Shown: positions 20,046 through 37,638 of the stretch, piece after piece
How positions within the stretch are numbered: position 1 is the first letter of the stretch
Layout of the letters: each line of letters starts with the position of its first letter
Source of the DNA: Aneurinibacillus thermoaerophilus
Lineage (GTDB): Bacteria > Bacillota > Bacilli > Aneurinibacillales > Aneurinibacillaceae
Length of the DNA stretch: 64,000 nt
Assembly (NCBI RefSeq): GCF_900099925.1
Contig: NZ_FNDE01000017.1
Coordinates: 1 to 64,000 of the forward strand
Direction: 5' to 3'
Translations under genes and position numbers: made by a program
The notes under the pieces: model-generated
What the model was told of the DNA's origin: nothing
Seen by the model: only the letters and a program-made list of their open reading frames with translations
Database searches by the model: none

Positions 20046-21218
20046 TCATAAATTTGTTATAAAGCTTCTCATTAGTTCGCTGAACTTTTGAGAAGCTTTT
20101 TCCTCCAAATTTTTAGTCATATGAGCGTAAATATTCATAGTCGTTTCAATATCTGTATGGCCAAGACGTTGCTGAATTTCTTTGATACCGACTCCTGCTT
20201 CAATAAGTAAGCTTGTATGCGTATGTCGTAGAGAATGAGGTGTTACATGTTTATCGATTTTTGCGATTTTTAAAAGGCGTTCCATTCTAAGTTCCCCTTT
20301 TTTCATGACTTCGGGGTATCCATTTGGTTGAGCAAACACAAAATCATTATCATGGTACTTGTCCCTCGTTCTCAACTTTATTTCGTTTTGTTCAGCTTTG
20401 TGTTTCTTTAAAAGAGCCATGACATTTGGATCCATTTTGATTGTTCGAATGGAGCCACTTGTTTTAGGAGGTAACAGTTTATATTGACTTTCATTGTTTC
20501 TGGGGTTATGCAGGGTTTTGGTAATAGAAATTGTATGTTCTTTAAAATCAATATCTTTCCACTGTAATGCGAGCAACTCCCCGAGCCTCATTCCGCTATA
20601 TGCTAAGGTCGAAAAGATAACGTAATCCATATACAATCCATGTTCTTTAGCTGCTTTTAGAAATCTAGCCAATTCCTCTTTTTCCAGAAATTTTTGGCAT
20701 TCTCTATATCCTCTATAGTCTTTTTCTGCTTAGGAACTTTTGTGTATTCAGTAGGATTGGACTTAATCAACTCCAATTCCATCGCTTTTTTAAAAATCAT
20801 TCTGCCTGTTGTATGAATGCCGTCCAAGGTGTTGTCTGCGTACCCTTTTTTCTTTAAGTCTATAAGCATGTCTTGATACATTTTTCGCGTAATATCCTTT
20901 AGCTTCAAGTTTCCAAAGTACCGTAATAAGTGTCCCAGCTCATGTTTTCTCACGCGAATGGTGCTTATTTGGCGGTTTCACTGTACATGGCTAGCCATTC
21001 TTCCGCGAAGTCTTTAAAAAGTATATCAGCGTCTTTTATATAAGTACCACTATTTATTTCTTCATATAATTTGGCAGCAGCTATTGCGCCTCTTTTTTAG
21101 TTTTAAATCCTCTTCTTGTCGTTGTTTTTCTCTTTCCAGTCGCAGGATCGATTCCGACATCCATCTTAAACATCCATTTTTCGCCGTCTTTTGTTTTGTA
21201 TTTTTGGAATGAAGCCAT
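20046..21218 (-). pseudogene. Tyrosine integrase, three frameshifts
   Basis: A phage-type site-specific recombinase in four pieces. The N-terminal arm-binding domain starts at ATG 21218 (MASFQKYKTKDGEKWMFKMD) and ends at a frameshift near 21086 (KKEAQ stop, continuing as IAAAKLYEEI). A second frameshift lies near 20970 (SETAK stop, continuing as STIRVRKHELG). A third lies near 20690 in an A-run (IENAKN, continuing as LEKEELARFLKAAKEHG). The catalytic domain (20046-20672) still has the Arg in SGMRLGELLALQW, HSLRHTHTSLLIEAG and the Tyr near MNIYAHM. With three breaks it cannot be functional. Confidence 0.88.
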
Positions 21219-22556: not shown

Positions 22557-23471
22557 TTGGCGAATCCTCAAATTGAAAACGGCTTTATCAAAATCGCCAA
22601 CGAGCTTTGGGACGAAATTTTACGACGGAATTTCACCAAACGCCAGCAAAACATCATCATGTTTATATGGCGGATGTCTTATGGGTGTGGCCAAAAAGAT
22701 TGTGTCATTGACAAATTCAATTATTTTGAGCTGGCCGGTTTGGATAAATCGGACATAAAAAAAGAGTTGAAATATTTGAAGATGTGCAACGTGATCCACT
22801 GGGACGAGGAAACAATGACTTTTGCAATCAATAAAAATTACGATTTTTGGCAAATAAACCCTAACAAAAATTGGGATGACGATAAATTTAAAAAGCTGAT
22901 TGCATCGAATTTGCAACGAAAAAAAGTTGGTGAAATACCAACGAATGAAGAGGATGGGGTTGGTAAAATACCAACACTTTATCACGATGAAGTTGGTAAA
23001 ACACCAACAATCGAGTTGGTAAAATACCAACCTCAAGAGGCCTCGATGCCTAGAGGGACAAGCGATTCGAGCTCCTTAAATACAATATTAAATACAAATA
23101 TAAATACTACTAGTACTACTACAATAGAGCCAGCTATTTTGTTTGAGCAATGTTTAACATGGTTATCTCCTATCCAAAGGGATCGGTTGAATAAATGGGT
23201 TGATGAATTTGGCGGAAATAAAGAAATCGTTAATTTAGCCATAAGGATAGCGGACGACAGTAACAAACGGAATTTTAACTTTGTGAACTTTTTGCTGAAC
23301 GAATGGCATAACAACAATTTGAAAACGGTCGAGCAGATTCAAACATACGAGCGACAAAAATTTAATCAGGCAAAAAAGAGAACTGGAAAAACAAAAGTAA
23401 CAGAAAAACACGGTCGCGATGTACCAGATGACTTTGTATTTGACATTAACGCAGGAGAGGATTGGCTATGA
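22557..23471 (+). CDS. Phage replication initiator (O-like)
   Basis: Protein of 304 residues. The N-terminal ~100 residues (NPQIENGFIKIANELWDEIL, FTKRQQNIIMFIWRMSYG) match the replication protein O N-terminal winged-helix domain that binds the origin. A variable middle region (about 120-160) is encoded by the four palindromic iterons, and the C-terminal part (WLSPIQRDRLNKWVDEFGG) resembles DnaD-like/primosomal regions that contact the helicase. TTG 22557 is used, with GGGGGTG upstream. It overlaps the helicase gene by ATGA. Confidence 0.82.
   Translation: MANPQIENGFIKIANELWDEILRRNFTKRQQNIIMFIWRMSYGCGQKDCVIDKFNYFELAGLDKSDIKKELKYLKMCNVIHWDEETMTFAINKNYDFWQINPNKNWDDDKFKKLIASNLQRKKVGEIPTNEEDGVGKIPTLYHDEVGKTPTIELVKYQPQEASMPRGTSDSSSLNTILNTNINTTSTTTIEPAILFEQCLTWLSPIQRDRLNKWVDEFGGNKEIVNLAIRIADDSNKRNFNFVNFLLNEWHNNNLKTVEQIQTYERQKFNQAKKRTGKTKVTEKHGRDVPDDFVFDINAGEDWL
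22926..23031. repeat. Four 17-bp palindromic iterons inside the initiator gene, candidate origin
   Basis: GTTGGTAAAATACCAAC or one-base variants occur at 22926, 22959, 22992 and 23015, start-to-start 33, 33 and 23 bases, i.e. about three, three and two helical turns. Each has a GTTGGT/(A)CCAAC dyad. The first three are read in one frame (VGEIPT, VGKIPT, VGKTPT) but the fourth in another (LVKYQP), so DNA rather than protein sequence is conserved. An AT-rich tract follows at 23076-23110. This resembles the lambda origin within gene O. Confidence 0.75.
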
Positions 23472-24721
23472 TTGCAGAAAAAGCACTGCTAGGGACGTTT
23501 CTAAGGCACAACTACTTGCTAAAGGACACAACACTAAAACCGGAACAATTTGAAGACACTCGTCATCAAAAGCTTTTCAAAACCATGCTGCAGCTCACAA
23601 GAAAAGGGAAGCCCGTCGATGTCGTCACGTTATCGACGGTCCCTTACCTCGAAGAGCTTGGCGGCATCTCATATATCAATGAACTGGCTTCCTTTGCCGA
23701 TGCTGAAAAAATCGAGGAATACGAGGAGCTTGTTTTAGAATCCTGGAAGGAACGGGAGAAAAACAATATCCTAACGCGGGCGATTCAGGAAGGATGGGAG
23801 ATCGGAAAAGTCATTGCGTCGTTAGACGCGATCAACGAAGCCGAAATGGATGACCATGCTTCCATAGCTGACCTATTGGCTGATATTTACGAAGCACCTT
23901 GGCAACCGCAGGAAACGAGAAGAGGCGTCCCGACTGGCATTGCTCAATTGGATAGAACAACGAACGGATTCCAGGACGGAGAAGTGACCGTTATCGCGGC
24001 CCGTCCTTCAATGGGAAAAACGGATGTCATGATTCACCTAGCAAAACAAGCCGGATGGCAAGGGTATTTGCCGATTGTGTTTTCACTTGAAATGCCGAGC
24101 AGAAGCATTACGGATCGTCTAATTGCTTCTACGGGCCGATTCAATCGAATGAAGATGCGGAACCTTTATAAGGGTCTAACGGATGAACAGAAAAAGATGT
24201 GGCTGACCATCATTGGCAGAGTGGCAGACACCAACATTCAGATTTTTGACGGTGCCGGCCAAACCATCATGGAAATGAGAGCGAAAACAAGGAAAATGGT
24301 TCATAGCTTTCCAGATAAAAAGCCTGTGATATTCATAGATTATTTGACTTTGATACGGCCAGCAAATTTTTACGGCGGCAGTGCACGTTTGCAGGTGACA
24401 GAGATATCAAAGAGCTTGAAAGCAATGGCCAAAGAATTCAATTGTCCGGTCATTACATTAGCGCAGCTGAATCGTTCGGTTGAACAACGAGCGGACAAGC
24501 GTCCAGTGATGTCCGATATCCGTGAATCGGGTTCGGTGGAACAAGACGCAGACCTCATCATCTTCCTGTACCGTGAAAAGTATTACAACAAGGAAACGGA
24601 CGACGACACGTTAGAGCTTATCATCGCTAAAAACCGAAACGGCCCGGTTGGAACGGTTCGCGTTAAGTACAACGAACATACAGGAGAGATTATCGATGAC
24701 TACGGTCAGAGAGCTGTATGA
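23468..24721 (+). CDS. DnaB-type replicative helicase of the prophage
   Basis: Protein of 417 residues: N-terminal DnaB domain (about 1-100, MIAEKALLGTFLRHNYLL) and RecA-like SF4 helicase domain with Walker A ARPSMGKTD, Walker B VIFIDYLTLI, and the LAQLNRSVEQR and DIRESGSVEQDADLI motifs. It unwinds DNA at the origin and recruits primase. ATG 23468 overlaps the stop of the initiator gene (ATGA), indicating coupled translation. Confidence 0.92.
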   Translation: MIAEKALLGTFLRHNYLLKDTTLKPEQFEDTRHQKLFKTMLQLTRKGKPVDVVTLSTVPYLEELGGISYINELASFADAEKIEEYEELVLESWKEREKNNILTRAIQEGWEIGKVIASLDAINEAEMDDHASIADLLADIYEAPWQPQETRRGVPTGIAQLDRTTNGFQDGEVTVIAARPSMGKTDVMIHLAKQAGWQGYLPIVFSLEMPSRSITDRLIASTGRFNRMKMRNLYKGLTDEQKKMWLTIIGRVADTNIQIFDGAGQTIMEMRAKTRKMVHSFPDKKPVIFIDYLTLIRPANFYGGSARLQVTEISKSLKAMAKEFNCPVITLAQLNRSVEQRADKRPVMSDIRESGSVEQDADLIIFLYREKYYNKETDDDTLELIIAKNRNGPVGTVRVKYNEHTGEIIDDYGQRAV

Positions 24722-27391: not shown

Positions 27392-27442
27392 AATTAAGTA
27401 AATTAAAATTTTTTTAAATTTAGTAGTATGGGGGATTTACAG

Positions 27443-28503
27443 ATGATTGATTTAAGAAGTGATACATTGACTTTACCTACTGAAGAAATGCGCGAAATTA
27501 TTGCAAATGCAACTGTTGGTGATGATTGTTATGGCGAGGATATGAGTGTTAATGAATTAGAACAATATTGTAAACAAATATTTGGTGTGGAAGATGCGTT
27601 ATTTGTTCCAACAGGTACAATGGCTAATCAGTTGGCGATAAAGACGCAAGTAAGTGAAGGTAATGAAGTAATTACCGAAACAAATTATCATATAAACTTT
27701 TACGAAAGTGCCTCAGTTGCTATTTTGAGCAGTGTAGTTCTTAATACATACAGAACTGTCGATGGAATTCTAAAGGTGGAACATGTTGAGGAATTAATTC
27801 ATTCTAAACCGAGAGGTGCCTTCTATGCTCAGCCTCAGCTAGTTTCAATTGAAAACATATAAATTACCATCAGGGTAAAATATTTCCTATAGAGGCGCTT
27901 AAGCAACTGTATGAATTTACGAGAGAAAAGAATATGTCTTTACATATGGATGGTGCGCGATTGTTTAATGCTCATGTAGCAACTAATATTCCCTTAAGTT
28001 ATTACGCAAAGTTTGTGGATTCACTGAGTGTATGTTTTGCAAAGGGACTTGGGGCACCTTTTGGCTCGATGCTAATGGGGAAAAAAGAGGTGATAAATAA
28101 AGCTAGAATTTACCGAAAGCAACTTGGAGCTGGGTTTCATCAGATAGGTATGTATGCAGCTGCGGCACTTTATGCGTTAAAAAATCATATACCTCGTTTG
28201 CTTACAGATCACCTGTTAACTAAAAAATTAGCGATTATGTTGTCTAAAATAAAAGGTATAAATATTGATCCTAGTGCTGTTGAAACTAATATGATTTTCT
28301 TTAATGTAAGTAATTTCAATGTAAATTCATTTGAGTTTGTGGACAGATGCAAGGAAAAAGGGCTGCTATTATTTCCTTGGTTACCGGATACAGTAAGAAT
28401 CGTAGTAAGTAGGAATGTCAATGATAAAGATATATATGATGCGGCGGATATTATTGAGTCAGTGTGTAAGGAGCTAACTAGGGGGATAGTGTATGTTTCA
28501 TAA
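27443..28503 (+). pseudogene. Threonine-aldolase-like PLP enzyme, frameshifted
   Basis: Fold-type I PLP enzyme of the low-specificity threonine aldolase/beta-eliminating lyase family, about 353 residues if repaired. The first part (27443-27862) has IDLRSDTLTLPTEEMRE and PTGTMANQLAI; the frame then changes by one base near 27858 (IENI stop) and continues NYHQGKIFPIEALKQ, HMDGARLFNAHVA and CFAKGLGAPFGS with the PLP lysine (27934-28503). These enzymes cleave or form beta-hydroxy amino acids from glycine and an aldehyde. There is no long homopolymer at the break, so it may be a true mutation. ATG 27443 follows GGGGGA. Confidence 0.82.
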
Positions 28504-29692
28504 AGTTAGTGAGGGGATTTTAAGTTTTTATATAAGGATTTTTAACTCTATAGGTTTTTTTGTCTATGTACCATTACTTTCACTATGGTTAGTTAAGTTA
28601 AAAGGTTTAGATATTACAGAAGCAAGTGTAGTGATTGCTATTTTTACCTTCATATCTAAAGCAGGGAGTGCAGTGGTTGGTGGTATTATAAATAAACTAG
28701 GGGTAAAAAAAAGTTTGCTTATAGGGCTTTGGGGTTCTGCAGTTTTGTTAAGCATACTGGTCATAATTGATTATTATATTATTATTCTATTCATGGTTTT
28801 AATGTTAGGAATATTGATATCTATTTATAATGTGAGTTTGAAAACACATATCTCTTTATTAGAGGAAGATAAAAGGTTACATGCATTTGCCTTATTAAAT
28901 ATAGCTGTTAACATTGGAGCATCAATTGGACCTTTTCTAGGAGGATTAGCTTTAGACTGGAATCCGCTTGGTATATTAATAATAGCTATTATTTGTTACT
29001 TATTGGCGGGGGCTCTTACGTTATTATTGCCAAATATAAAAGTAGAGGAATTGGAACAGAATTTGAATATTCTACAGTTTATAAAAAATAGAAAATATAA
29101 TCGTCATTTTCTGATATTTTTAAAGTTCACAGTTTTTTCAGGGGTTTTTTGGTTTTTGTATTCACAAATATTTACTACTTTTCCTGTAGTTGTTTCGAAA
29201 GATTTCTCCGGAAAAACTATTGGTTTGTTTTTTACTATTAATGCTCTAACTGTAATTTTATTTCAAGGTATTTATCCAAAAATACAACCTAAATTTAAAA
29301 TTGAAAATTGGTATTTCTTTTCGTTGGTATTAATTGGAATATCTTATTTTTTAATATGGATTTCCCGTAATTTTTTAATAATTTCTATTAGTATTATTAT
29401 TTTTAGTATTGCTGAAATTATTTGGGTTCCTACAATTGATAGTCAGGTGGTTGCTAAGAAAGGAGATTTAAGTTCATCTTGGGCATTTGGTTTTTCAGGA
29501 GTATTTTGGGGAATATGGGAATCGATAGGTGGTTTGATTGGTCTGAATATATATAAGTACTTTGGTCAGCAAACATTTTTATGTTTTACAATAATATGCG
29601 GTGTAATTCTTGTTGTTTATATTTTTGGGATGACAAATTCGAGTGTAACTTTTTTTGTTAAAAAGCAAGGGGTTAAGAGAGAGGAGTTATGA
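28493..29692 (+). CDS. MFS transporter
   Basis: Membrane protein of 399 residues with about 11-12 segments and an MFS-type loop (GGIINKLGVKKSLLIGL) between segments 2 and 3. It overlaps the preceding and following genes by a few bases. Placed among ligases, it is most likely the exporter of the pathway product and so also its self-resistance, as BacE is for bacilysin. Substrate unknown. Codon use is AT-rich like the rest of this operon. Confidence 0.88.
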   Translation: MFHKVSEGILSFYIRIFNSIGFFVYVPLLSLWLVKLKGLDITEASVVIAIFTFISKAGSAVVGGIINKLGVKKSLLIGLWGSAVLLSILVIIDYYIIILFMVLMLGILISIYNVSLKTHISLLEEDKRLHAFALLNIAVNIGASIGPFLGGLALDWNPLGILIIAIICYLLAGALTLLLPNIKVEELEQNLNILQFIKNRKYNRHFLIFLKFTVFSGVFWFLYSQIFTTFPVVVSKDFSGKTIGLFFTINALTVILFQGIYPKIQPKFKIENWYFFSLVLIGISYFLIWISRNFLIISISIIIFSIAEIIWVPTIDSQVVAKKGDLSSSWAFGFSGVFWGIWESIGGLIGLNIYKYFGQQTFLCFTIICGVILVVYIFGMTNSSVTFFVKKQGVKREEL

Positions 29693-29694
29693 TG

Positions 29695-30924
29695 ATGAAG
29701 AATTTGTTGTTTATTGAATCAAATACGACTGGTACAGGTGCTAGGGCAATGAAAATTGCAAAGCAATTGGGCTATCAAATACATTTTTGGACGGTTAACC
29801 CGCAACAATATAAAGCAATTGTTGATGATAATCCATTAGAATTAGCGGATAAAGTAACAGTGATTGATACTTATAATATCGATTTAATGAAAGAAGAGTT
29901 AGAACGTTCCAATGTAAATTTTGATGGAATCCTTGCTTTTGATGATTATCATTTAATCCCAGCTGCTGAATTAACAAAATTTTTAGGATTAAAAGGTCAT
30001 AATATTGAATCATTGAATAGAGTACGTTATAAGCATTTAACAAGAAGCTATCTTGCAGAACATAATTTTAGAGATTTTTTACAACCCTCTTTTCATATAG
30101 TAAATTGTCTTGAAGATTTGATAGATTTGAAAATTCAATTCCCATGTGTAATAAAACCTGTGGATGATAGTGGAAGTAATGGAGTATCTATCTGCCAAAA
30201 CTATAATGATCTAGAATCATCTTTACTTGCTGAGTTACAGAGACAGCATAATGAACGTGGATATAAATTAACAAGGAAATGGTTAATTGAAGAATTTATT
30301 AAGGGACAAGAATTTTCAGCTGAAATGCTATATACTACTGGCGGTTGGAAATTGGTGTCTGTTACTAAAAAAGAAACTTATGGTTCTCATGCAGTTGAAT
30401 GTGGACATGTCACTGGACCGGAAATAAATCCTATTTACGATTTAGAGGAAAGATGTAAAAAACTTCTTGATATTTTAGGATTAAATTATGGTGCGGCACA
30501 TATTGAATTTTTCATAAGTGGTAAAGATTTATATTTAGTAGAAGTCAATCCTAGATTGGCTGGTGATTGTATACCTGAGTTAGTAGAAATATCTACAGGA
30601 GTTGATATGGTTAAACACATTGTTTTACAAGCAATTGGTGAATTAACAGATATTAACATTGTAAAACAAGGTTATGCGGCCATCAAGTTTATATTACCTT
30701 TTGAACGAGGTATTTATACAGATGTTAGAGGAATCGATGAAGCACAAAGTGTAAAAGGTGTGAAAAGAGTGAGTATAGTACAATTACCATTTAGAGCTGA
30801 GAGTATTAAAAGTAGCTATCAGAGATTAGGGTTTGTTATTGCAGAAGGTGATAGTATGGAAAAGGCTATACATTTTACACAAACAGCTATAAATATGCTA
30901 AAGTGGAGTGTTGTATATGAATGA
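29695..30924 (+). CDS. ATP-grasp ligase 1 of the cargo operon
   Basis: Protein of about 409 residues. An N-terminal Rossmann-like region (MKNLLFIESNTTGTGARAM) is followed by an ATP-grasp domain: ATP-lysine strand PCVIKPVDDSGSNGV, WLIEEFIKGQEFSAEM, and Mg-binding AAHIEFFISGKDLYLVEVNPR (about 260-282). A C-terminal region resembles that of L-amino-acid ligases (BacD/RizA type) and carboxylate-amine ligases. Such enzymes activate a carboxylate as acylphosphate and join it to an amine. The three ATGs at 29689-29697 are alternative starts; GAGGAG spacing favours 29695. Confidence 0.85.
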   Translation: MKNLLFIESNTTGTGARAMKIAKQLGYQIHFWTVNPQQYKAIVDDNPLELADKVTVIDTYNIDLMKEELERSNVNFDGILAFDDYHLIPAAELTKFLGLKGHNIESLNRVRYKHLTRSYLAEHNFRDFLQPSFHIVNCLEDLIDLKIQFPCVIKPVDDSGSNGVSICQNYNDLESSLLAELQRQHNERGYKLTRKWLIEEFIKGQEFSAEMLYTTGGWKLVSVTKKETYGSHAVECGHVTGPEINPIYDLEERCKKLLDILGLNYGAAHIEFFISGKDLYLVEVNPRLAGDCIPELVEISTGVDMVKHIVLQAIGELTDINIVKQGYAAIKFILPFERGIYTDVRGIDEAQSVKGVKRVSIVQLPFRAESIKSSYQRLGFVIAEGDSMEKAIHFTQTAINMLKWSVVYE

Positions 30925-32125
30925 ATACGTGGTTATTTTAGGGGCAAGCCGCTACGGAGTGGAAGCAGCATTCAAGTGTGGTTTTAAAACGGTTGTAGTG
31001 ACAGATAGAAATTCAAGTATTAGCACTGAAATTTCAAAAATAGCTGAGGCTGTGTTTTATGTTCAGGATATAGAAGATAAGGATCATGTACTGTTAACAG
31101 TAAAGAAGATAATTAATTTGTATGGGGATGTTGAGTTAGTGTTAAGTTTTACTGAATTAGGATTAGAAACAGCTGCTTATATTAGCGAGAAACTTAATTT
31201 AAAAACAAATTCTCTTGAAACAGTAGTAAAGACAAGAAATAAAGGTCTAATGCGTCAAGTTTTACAAACGGACCCTGAATTACGATTAGATGTAATAAGT
31301 GGCAAAGTATCTAGCTTTCCAAGAAAATTTCCATATTTAAGACCAGCAATAATAAAACCACTTGATGGATTTGGAAGTAAAGGAGTATGTTATATCTCTA
31401 ATCAAAATGATTGGGAACAATGGTTAGAGGCGAATCAAGATAGTTCTAATGAATGGATATTAGAGCCTTATATTAATGGTCCAGAATATAGTGTAGAAAC
31501 GGTATCATCTAATGGTAATCACTTAATTTTAGGAATAACTGAAAAACAAACAACCGGAAAGCCTAATTTTATTGAGATTGGTCATATTGTACCTACGCAA
31601 TTAGAAAATGATAAAGTAGAACAAATAGAACAACTAACAATTAAAGCCCTCAACTTGTTAAATATACAATATGGCCCTGGACATATTGAAATAAAGTGGG
31701 ATCTTGAGGAAAATAAGCCTGTTATTATTGAAATACATACTAGACCGGGAGGAGACTTTATTCCTTATTTACATCAATTGTCATCCGATTTAAATCAATA
31801 TGAATTAGGTATTTTATCTTATTTTGATGAAAAGAGTATAAATGTGAAGCCTATTTATAAAAGAGCTAGCTTAGTAAAATTTCTAACTTTTCCTGAAGGC
31901 ATTTTACAGCAAGTATCTATAGAAAAAGAAATTAATAAAGACTATATTAAAGATTGGGCAGTTTATTATAAATTAGGTGATTATATAAGAAAAACAACAG
32001 ATTCATATACACGATCTGGACATGTAATTGTTTCTTCATCAACAGTGGAAGAAAGCAAAAGATTATGTGACAATTTTATTAATAATCTAAAATACAAAAT
32101 TATCAAAAACAAGGAAAGTATGTGA
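30917..32125 (+). CDS. ATP-grasp ligase 2 of the cargo operon
   Basis: Protein of 402 residues, similar in plan to ligase 1 but clearly diverged: nucleotide-binding-like N-terminus (NEYVVILGASRYGVEAA), PAIIKPLDGFGSKGV, WILEPYINGPEYSVE, and the Mg site HIEIKWDLEENKPVIIEIHTRPGG. It overlaps ligase 1 by eight bases. Two different ligases in one operon suggest two successive couplings, for instance a tripeptide or an amino acid joined to two partners. The substrates cannot be read from sequence. Confidence 0.85.
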   Translation: MNEYVVILGASRYGVEAAFKCGFKTVVVTDRNSSISTEISKIAEAVFYVQDIEDKDHVLLTVKKIINLYGDVELVLSFTELGLETAAYISEKLNLKTNSLETVVKTRNKGLMRQVLQTDPELRLDVISGKVSSFPRKFPYLRPAIIKPLDGFGSKGVCYISNQNDWEQWLEANQDSSNEWILEPYINGPEYSVETVSSNGNHLILGITEKQTTGKPNFIEIGHIVPTQLENDKVEQIEQLTIKALNLLNIQYGPGHIEIKWDLEENKPVIIEIHTRPGGDFIPYLHQLSSDLNQYELGILSYFDEKSINVKPIYKRASLVKFLTFPEGILQQVSIEKEINKDYIKDWAVYYKLGDYIRKTTDSYTRSGHVIVSSSTVEESKRLCDNFINNLKYKIIKNKESM

Positions 32126-32131
32126 TATTAC

Positions 32132-33235
32132 ATGGCTGTATATACAATAGAGAGTGTAAATAGTAACTGTAAAGTGGAAATTGCAACATCTTCTTTATTT
32201 GAAATGATGGCATGCTTAAGGAAATGCTACATTTTGTCAGGTAGGATTGACTGTGAACCGTATCTTCCTACCGTTAGATTTGATGATTTTTTCAAAAAAA
32301 ATGAGAAGTTGATCAAAAAATTTTATGGTAGGTATGAGTATGGGGCGCAGTTAGCGGAGTTTTTAGTTGGAATATCTGCTCCACATACATTTAATAATTT
32401 GATGGAGTATATAAACAATGTATCAAAATACGAGTTTTTATACTATTTGTTTGGTCGGTATATATCTAGGGAAGAAGTAGAGTTTTTATTGAATAATTCA
32501 ACGTCTCCGCTTGATGATATTCGTAACAAGATAACATCCCTAGGGGGGCTAATTAATCCTGAGCAGCTTGAATTTGCTGAACATTATAATCAATTTTTTG
32601 CTGAACTAGTGTATCTTTGGAAAAGTTTTTACAAACACTGTTACTTTGATTTGGAATCAAAACTCGGATCTCTTTGGGATATAGCTAATAAACGATTAGC
32701 AAAAGATCTGAAACATTTAGGGATCGAAAAAGTGGTTAGAAAGTTGTTGTATGATTATAAAGTTCCAGAACAGTTTCCTAATAAGGAAACTAAGCTAATA
32801 AAATTTTACCCTTCTTATTTTGTATCACCAAAATTCATTTTGATTTGGGGATTTGGTGAGCTCCATATAATCTATGATTTAAAGCATTATATAAACGAAA
32901 ACGATATTTACTTTGAAGAAAATAAAGTCAATATATTGAATTATGATCAGAATAAAATTAATCATGTTTCAGATATTGCAAAGTCGTTATCTGAAGTTGT
33001 TAGAATTAAAATATTGTTATTTATAGCAAATGAAGAGAAAATAAAATCACAGGAAATTGCTGATAAATTAAATATTACCCCAGCAACTGTTTCAAGACAT
33101 TTAAGTCTTCTTAAACAATCGAATCTCATTTTTGAACATAAAGAAAATGGTTACAATATTTACGAAATAAATGAAAAGGAAATAGAGCGCTATTGTTCAA
33201 TATTAAAAGATATGTTAGGTATAAAAAATGATTAG
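32132..33235 (+). CDS. ArsR-type regulator with a long N-terminal domain
   Basis: Protein of 367 residues. The last ~85 residues form a winged helix (SEVVRIKILLFIANEEKIKS, then NITPATVSRHLSLLKQS) typical of ArsR. The first ~270 residues are a mostly helical domain of unknown type seen in some ArsR-family regulators; it could sense the product or a precursor. As the last gene of the operon it probably acts on the palindrome at 27373. No metal-binding Cys cluster is visible, so metal sensing is unlikely. Confidence 0.78.
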   Translation: MAVYTIESVNSNCKVEIATSSLFEMMACLRKCYILSGRIDCEPYLPTVRFDDFFKKNEKLIKKFYGRYEYGAQLAEFLVGISAPHTFNNLMEYINNVSKYEFLYYLFGRYISREEVEFLLNNSTSPLDDIRNKITSLGGLINPEQLEFAEHYNQFFAELVYLWKSFYKHCYFDLESKLGSLWDIANKRLAKDLKHLGIEKVVRKLLYDYKVPEQFPNKETKLIKFYPSYFVSPKFILIWGFGELHIIYDLKHYINENDIYFEENKVNILNYDQNKINHVSDIAKSLSEVVRIKILLFIANEEKIKSQEIADKLNITPATVSRHLSLLKQSNLIFEHKENGYNIYEINEKEIERYCSILKDMLGIKND

Positions 33236-37465: not shown

Positions 37466-37493
37466 TTGACTTTTCGAATACCTCTGGTAAACT
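37466..37493 (+). promoter_or_regulatory. Promoter of guaA
   Basis: TTGACT (37466), 16-base spacer, TAAACT (37488) just ahead of the purine riboswitch. Confidence 0.7.
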
Positions 37494-37503
37494 AAATTCG
37501 TTA

Positions 37504-37578
37504 AAGCCTCATATAATCTCAGGGATACGGCCTGAAAGTTTCTACCGAACGACCGTAAATCGTTCGACTATGAGGACA
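37504..37578 (+). promoter_or_regulatory. Purine riboswitch, guanine type
   Basis: Complete purine aptamer: P1 CCTCAT/ATGAGG (37507-37512 and 37570-37575), conserved ATAATC, P2 with GTTTCTACC, P3 with CCGTAAAT, and CGACTATG at the 3' junction. The specificity nucleotide is C in GACTAT; adenine switches have T there. It should turn off guaA when guanine or hypoxanthine is plentiful. Confidence 0.95.
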
Positions 37579-37589
37579 GATAGCTGTGC

Positions 37590-37638
37590 ACCAGGTTTCT
37601 GTCTCTATACTTTTTTATAGAAAGCCTGGTTTTTGTTT
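37590..37638 (+). terminator. Riboswitch expression platform
   Basis: ACCAGGTTTCT (37590-37600) pairs with AGAAAGCCTGGT (37619-37630) and is followed by Ts. This is the off-state terminator of the guanine switch; the antiterminator would use the 3' strand of P1. Confidence 0.85.

Follow-up and report, generated by a model that had tools for sequence, protein, structure and literature searches.

In phage lambda, the replication origin lies inside gene O and contains iterons together with an AT-rich tract, an arrangement that is well established (PMC7466680; PMC5043065). The oriL of Bacillus phage SPP1 is likewise contained in a gene, gene 38, whose product gp38 binds the oriL repeats (PMC6316719). 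The DnaD protein of B. subtilis binds TnnT, a single-strand motif, in pairs (PMC10201434). We analysed a window of 64,000 nt from Aneurinibacillus thermoaerophilus (assembly GCF_900099925.1, contig NZ_FNDE01000017.1, positions 1 to 64,000, forward strand), for which a preliminary description had proposed a probable phage origin inside an initiator gene. At the sequence level this proposal was supported by the dyads, by a layout recurring in 84 of 110 related genes, and by a conserved AT-rich tract; we regard a putative origin inside the initiator gene of the window as well supported. Taken as a whole, the locus is best explained (probability roughly 90%) as a lambda-O-type origin embedded in its own initiator gene within a defective-looking prophage, where initiator dimers would occupy the dyads, DNA would melt, a strand would be captured and handed over to DnaB, and residues 64–66 would provide specificity.

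The element runs from an integrase (20046–20953) through a repressor-like gene, the initiator, the helicase, and dUTPase and RuvC-like genes to about 27.3 kb. The integrase, on the minus strand, is split between two overlapping frames, which suggests that it has been frameshifted and that the prophage is defective; because the prophage looks broken, the origin may not fire in this host. No phage structural genes were seen in the part of the window that was annotated by family, up to 35 kb. Inside or beside the prophage, a gene cluster at 27428–33235 contained a beta-eliminating lyase/threonine-aldolase-like gene in two pieces (27428–27862 and 27934–28503), an MFS transporter, two ATP-grasp genes with L-amino-acid ligase C-terminal domains, and an ArsR-like regulator; it is possibly a dipeptide-type biosynthetic cluster. 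We also observed a transposase at 34.2 kb and a purine riboswitch at 37489–37590 (87.6 bits).

The initiator gene and its neighbour are as follows.

22557–23471, plus strand: initiator gene, 304 aa, TTG start; Phage_rep_O domain at aa 5–98, DnaB_2/DnaD-type C-terminal domain at aa 202–264

23462–24721, plus strand: DnaB-family replicative helicase gene, overlapping the end of the initiator gene

Judged by its domains and by its place upstream of the DnaB helicase gene, the host gene of the dyads is a lambda-O-type initiator. The Phage_rep_O match was strong (E 6.5e-28, 97.5 bits versus a cut-off of 28.7), as was the DnaB_2 match at the C-terminus (58.2 bits versus a cut-off of 22), and the C-terminal domain also matched the sequence of DnaD in PDB 8ojj (E 2.3e-7). 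Phage_rep_O was present in 60/60 scanned members of the family and DnaB_2 in 22, the remaining C-termini being diverse. An AlphaFold2 model of the N-terminal domain (mean pLDDT 87) had a winged-helix pattern in which helix 67–76 was preceded by a turn at 61–66, so that residues 64–66 fall where the likely recognition helix begins. A PDB fold search with this model gave weak winged-helix matches only (best E 0.011).

Four perfect 17-bp dyads of the form GTTGGT-N5-ACCAAC (6-5-6) lie within the initiator gene.

22926–22942, no strand assigned: iteron 1, GTTGGTGAAATACCAAC, peptide VGEIPT

22959–22975, no strand assigned: iteron 2, GTTGGTAAAATACCAAC, peptide VGKIPT

22992–23008, no strand assigned: iteron 3, GTTGGTAAAACACCAAC, peptide VGKTPT

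23015–23031, no strand assigned: iteron 4, GTTGGTAAAATACCAAC in another frame, peptide ELVKYQP, 23 bp past iteron 3

The preliminary description had placed all four correctly; the 16-bp motif that it gave, GTTGGT-N5-CCAAC, has zero matches at these sites and must be replaced by the 17-bp form. Exact matches to the 17-bp motif in the 3.66-Mb genome were those four only, and the reversed control pattern had one match. The dyads are spaced by 33, 33 and 23 bp. An earlier suggestion that these distances are whole helical turns holds only roughly for the window gene (3.1, 3.1 and 2.2 turns at 10.5 bp), but in the family the gaps cluster near 23, 33, 43 and 54 bp, so that the iterons appear to be helically phased.

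Iterons 1 to 3 have a common reading frame and the peptide pattern VG[EK][IT]PT. The dyads might therefore merely follow from selection of a repeated peptide, VGKIPT, as a protein linker while the DNA itself is inert, and the common frame and peptide of three of the four copies speak for this explanation. Copy 4 speaks against it, because the frame change reported earlier is real and this copy encodes ELVKYQP rather than VGEIPT, VGKIPT or VGKTPT. Resampling of synonymous codons also destroyed the dyads: with the peptide held fixed, 2000 redraws averaged 0.63 perfect 6-5-6 dyads per gene (maximum 4; observed 4), and for the homologous gene of Geobacillus phage GBK2 the expectation was 1.28 (maximum 5; observed 8). 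Codon shuffles downstream of the domain reached the observed dyad score in 0/60 cases.

The relatives of the initiator pointed the same way. Phages, GTDB genomes and IMG/VR supplied these relatives, and a single rule was applied to 110 distinct genes, by which a gene was dyad-positive if its dyad score was at least 5 and was unreached by any codon shuffle (0/60 each). In 84 of the 110 genes, 6-5-6 dyads were found at the same place; detectable dyads were missing in about a fifth of the relatives, some of which were merely below threshold. Among the 84 dyad-positive genes the spacer was strongly [AG]AAA[CT] (compare AAAAC in lambda), and half-site bases 2–3 were almost invariably TT, with the other bases variable (GTTGGT 11, GTTACT 11, GTTACG 8, GTTACC 7, CTTCTT 6, GTTAGT 5, plus others). 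The last gap was most commonly 23 bp (55/84), which is not a multiple of 3 and so accounts for the frame change of the last dyad. Dyads occupied two or three reading frames in 82/84 genes.

These frame data, in copy 4 and in 82 of 84 relatives, led us to reject the repeated peptide as the source of the dyads. That explanation is further weakened by half-sites that vary across relatives while the palindromic layout stays constant; it is largely refuted, and we give it next to no credence. The earlier conclusion that the DNA is selected rather than the peptide was upheld by the 82/84 count and by the AT-rich tract, which is likewise conserved as DNA in two frames. The iterons also persisted where the protein varied: GBK2 kept its dyads despite C-terminal divergence, and the layout was kept in 84/110 genes. 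We looked for the opposite outcome, amino acids conserved without dyads, and did not see it among close relatives. Brevibacillus phage Jimmer1 had other dyads, with half-site GTTACT, at the equivalent place. Five genes whose helix starts with Y-R-N-V (L047, L049, L140, L144, L145) had no clear 6-5-6 dyad array, and carried peptide repeats at that place (LLQNIE..LLQNI); these may be served by a different type of site.

Downstream of the iterons, three further features were found.

23032–23076, no strand assigned: GC-rich spacer (58% GC) from the iterons to the AT-rich tract, its length widely conserved in relatives

23077–23112, no strand assigned: AT-rich tract, three tandem 12-mers TAAATACAATAT / TAAATACAAATA / TAAATACTACTA

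23105–23122, plus strand: triplet run TACTACTAGTACTACTAC, with T at every third nt of the coding strand, giving tandem TnnT

The AT-rich tract does not follow the iterons directly, as had been stated; the 45-bp GC-rich segment intervenes. The least stable of the 63,951 50-mers in the window starts at 23077, the first base of the tract. Base composition in the relatives followed the same plan, the 40 bp past the last dyad being GC-rich and the following 40 AT-rich. The family tract is a tandem 12-mer, TAAAGACANTAT, whose best match at up to 130 bp had a mean of 2.95 mismatches in 19, versus 7.61 in codon shuffles. A 12-mer match with 5 or fewer mismatches was present in 66/83 genes, typically 45–46 bp beyond the last dyad, and the tract was read in two frames (SKDSIKDS type in 51 genes, LKTLLKTL or LNTILNT type in 15). 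We also tested the GC-rich spacer for a conserved inverted repeat, but the signal was weak (0.28 of genes versus 0.20 in shuffles) and the idea was dropped.

Triplet runs of at least 3 copies were concentrated beyond the spacer. In 83 relatives there were 1.41 runs per gene at +50 to +99 bp past the last iteron, versus at most 0.02 per gene in any upstream bin and at most 0.16 in any other bin. The triplets at +50 to +99 bp were AGT, ACT, GTT and AAT, and were almost absent from the rest of the gene. In 121 of 130 runs the coding-strand triplet contained a T, which yields tandem TnnT, and in the window the run at 23105–23122 has six T at period 3, so that at least two TnnT lie on one strand in the predicted unwinding region. 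The longest T runs averaged 4.3 versus 3.0 elsewhere in the gene, in a strand test that is only moderately strong; because A runs also exceeded the base-shuffle null, a strand preference for T is unproven. Binding of TnnT is so far the sole account of this concentration of triplets. Capture of a strand at the triplet run is plausible because the C-terminal domain is DnaD-like and tandem TnnT is the motif of DnaD; by analogy, we consider it a reasonable guess that the DnaD-like domain would act there.

The sequence itself shows the dyads with their spacing and reading frames, the conservation of dyads and 12-mers as DNA, the domain content, the order of the genes and the covariation described below. 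From these we propose a series of predicted steps, in which the initiator binds, the DNA melts, a strand is captured and the helicase is loaded. Initiator dimers would bind the four dyads through the N-terminal winged-helix domain, with one dimer per 17-bp dyad and one half-site per monomer, and the half-site specificity would come mainly from residues 64–66 at the start of the recognition helix. The bound dimers would wrap the DNA and put strain on the AT-rich 12-mer tract 45 bp downstream, which would open. The DnaD-like C-terminal domain would then hold the exposed strand, probably at the TnnT run, and the captured strand would pass to the DnaB helicase, the product of the next gene.

Alternatively, the dyads might be an operator for transcriptional autoregulation by the initiator, with the origin located elsewhere. 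Dyads inside a gene could serve as a roadblock, and one copy resembles a weak terminator on the minus strand. However, there were no promoter-like sites close to the dyads, and the region had fewer of these than its own shuffles. The 12-mer tract and the triplet run are conserved, as is their distance from the dyads, and this fits an origin instead; proven origins occupy this place in lambda and SPP1. We therefore judged the operator explanation to be very unlikely. The origin explanation draws on a Phage_rep_O domain, several dyads beyond chance, and an easily melted tract 45 bp from the last iteron, all of which belong to a lambda-O-type in-gene origin and all of which were found here. Counting against it are the relatives in which no dyads were detected, the broken look of the prophage, and the GC skew minimum of GBK2, which is near 20.6 kb, away from the dyads; this skew is weak evidence either way because all but one of the GBK2 genes are on one strand.

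We asked how the half-sites relate to the residues that would read them.

22746–22754, plus strand: codons 64–66 (K-S-D), start of the likely recognition helix, which in relatives covary with bases 1, 4 and 5 of the half-site

Covariation was counted over 97 genes, training plus held-out; L050, L131 and L136 were left out for unreliable half-site calls, and L006 was reset by hand to GTTACT. When residue 66 was D, base 5 was G in 25 genes and C in 11 (a single clade, I-Q-D); N went with T in 14 genes, H with C in 33 and A in 4, and K with C in 9. Residue 64 as K or R accompanied G at base 1 in 52/52 genes, and E, A, Y, Q or P at this position accompanied mostly C (29 C, 2 T, 1 G). The 11 genes of the I-Q-D clade, L029 and those closely related to it, had D66 with GTTACG or GTTACA, contrary to the base-5 rule. 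The base-5 pairings agree with ordinary base-contact chemistry on the opposite strand, where Asp would contact C, Asn would contact A, and His or Lys would contact G.

Shared ancestry, in the absence of any recognition rule, might produce such covariation; this explanation bears on the added claim of a rule and not on the origin. Many of the rows are closely related, and when only the starred, well-supported branches were used, the independent pairs were too few for significance (D/G 2, N/T 2, base 1 5). Comparisons that allow for relatedness argued for a rule. In identity-matched pairs the top column was residue 66, with an excess of 0.58 (next, 0.31). Phylogenetically independent contrasts ranked residue 66 first among all columns for base 5 (6/7 differ versus 0.16 in matched same-base pairs) and residue 65 first among all columns for base 4 (11/13 differ versus 0.43), while for base 1 residue 64 came third (8/10 versus 0.40), after K69 and E58. 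In a tree built without the helix columns, K-S-D with GTTGGT occurred in two distant clades, and N-H with GTTCC in two. The rule, including the exceptions I-Q-D and A-T-H, was fixed in writing before new genes were fetched. The held-out genes were less than 90% identical to training genes, had clear dyads and had a prediction available (L184, Q-N-Y, was without one). Base 5 was correct in 12/12, where a constant guess of C would score 4/12, and base 1 in 10/12; these cases are not independent because 8 of the 12 are G cases from one host family, which again leaves something to shared ancestry. On this evidence we considered shared ancestry alone to be unlikely, though less so than either explanation set aside above.

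We lean slightly toward the view that, in O-type initiators of Bacillota phages, base 5 is set by residue 66 (D-G, N-T, H or K-C), with an influence of residue 65 on base 4 and of residue 64 on base 1, such that the initiator and its embedded origin switch specificity jointly, with the triplet run as a DnaD-type strand-capture site in the same gene. In open-licence papers we found no description of the residue-base rule or of the Bacillota family, and both the layout and the rule look new. An in-gene origin ties the initiator to its own site, and specificity therefore shifts only when both change together. A readable residue-to-base rule would let new phage replication specificities be predicted and tested by single substitutions, and bears on the emergence of mutually compatible replicons. 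The conserved arrangement of dyads, a last gap of 23 bp, a GC-rich spacer of 45 bp, 12-mers and triplets also offers a handle for locating origins in unannotated prophages. What should draw a specialist's attention is the layout shared across Bacillota, together with the residue-base rule.

The closest record is gp45 of phage GBK2, which is 55% identical to the window initiator. The GBK2 gene has seven copies of the window's dyad, the last out of frame, with final gaps of 33 and 23 bp; it differs in a divergent C-terminal part and in the separate helicase-loader gene that comes next, ahead of the helicase gene, and that is missing in the window. GBK2 is mosaic with SPP1, the order gp45-46-47 corresponding to SPP1 38-39-40, and the helicases are 58% identical. 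Our comparison with SPP1 itself was based on its 8.5-kb replication record. SPP1 also has repeats and an AT-rich tract in the initiator gene of a Bacillota phage, and consecutive genes for initiator, loader and helicase (38-39-40). In contrast, gp38 has no Phage_rep_O match in Pfam and scored 4.6 bits against the family profile, and its repeats, judged by eye, are not 6-5-6 dyads; on the domain and profile results we rejected assignment of the window protein to a gp38-type initiator with a homologous N-terminal domain. The oriC of Bacillus subtilis likewise has initiator sites followed by an unwinding region with T at every third base on one strand, the DnaD Recognition Element (PMC10201434), but its initiator is DnaA and not an O protein, so this parallel is by resemblance only.

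The comparison with lambda made in the preliminary description was right in layout. Lambda has a Phage_rep_O-type N-terminal domain, four 6-5-6 dyads inside the gene with an AAAAC-type spacer, and an AT-rich tract downstream, and the last two of its annotated iterons are also 23 bp apart. The half-site is TCCCTC in lambda versus GTTGGT in the window, and the C-terminus of the window initiator differs in being DnaD-like. The best 12-mer match in lambda lies 4 bp past the last iteron, versus 45 in the window, and is weak, with 5 mismatches and a p of about 0.04 for a pattern picked afterwards, so we do not claim the lambda tract as kin of the 12-mers. In-gene origins are thus already known from lambda and SPP1, and because gp38 lacks Phage_rep_O, the O-type form in Bacillota represents a variant that uses another initiator.
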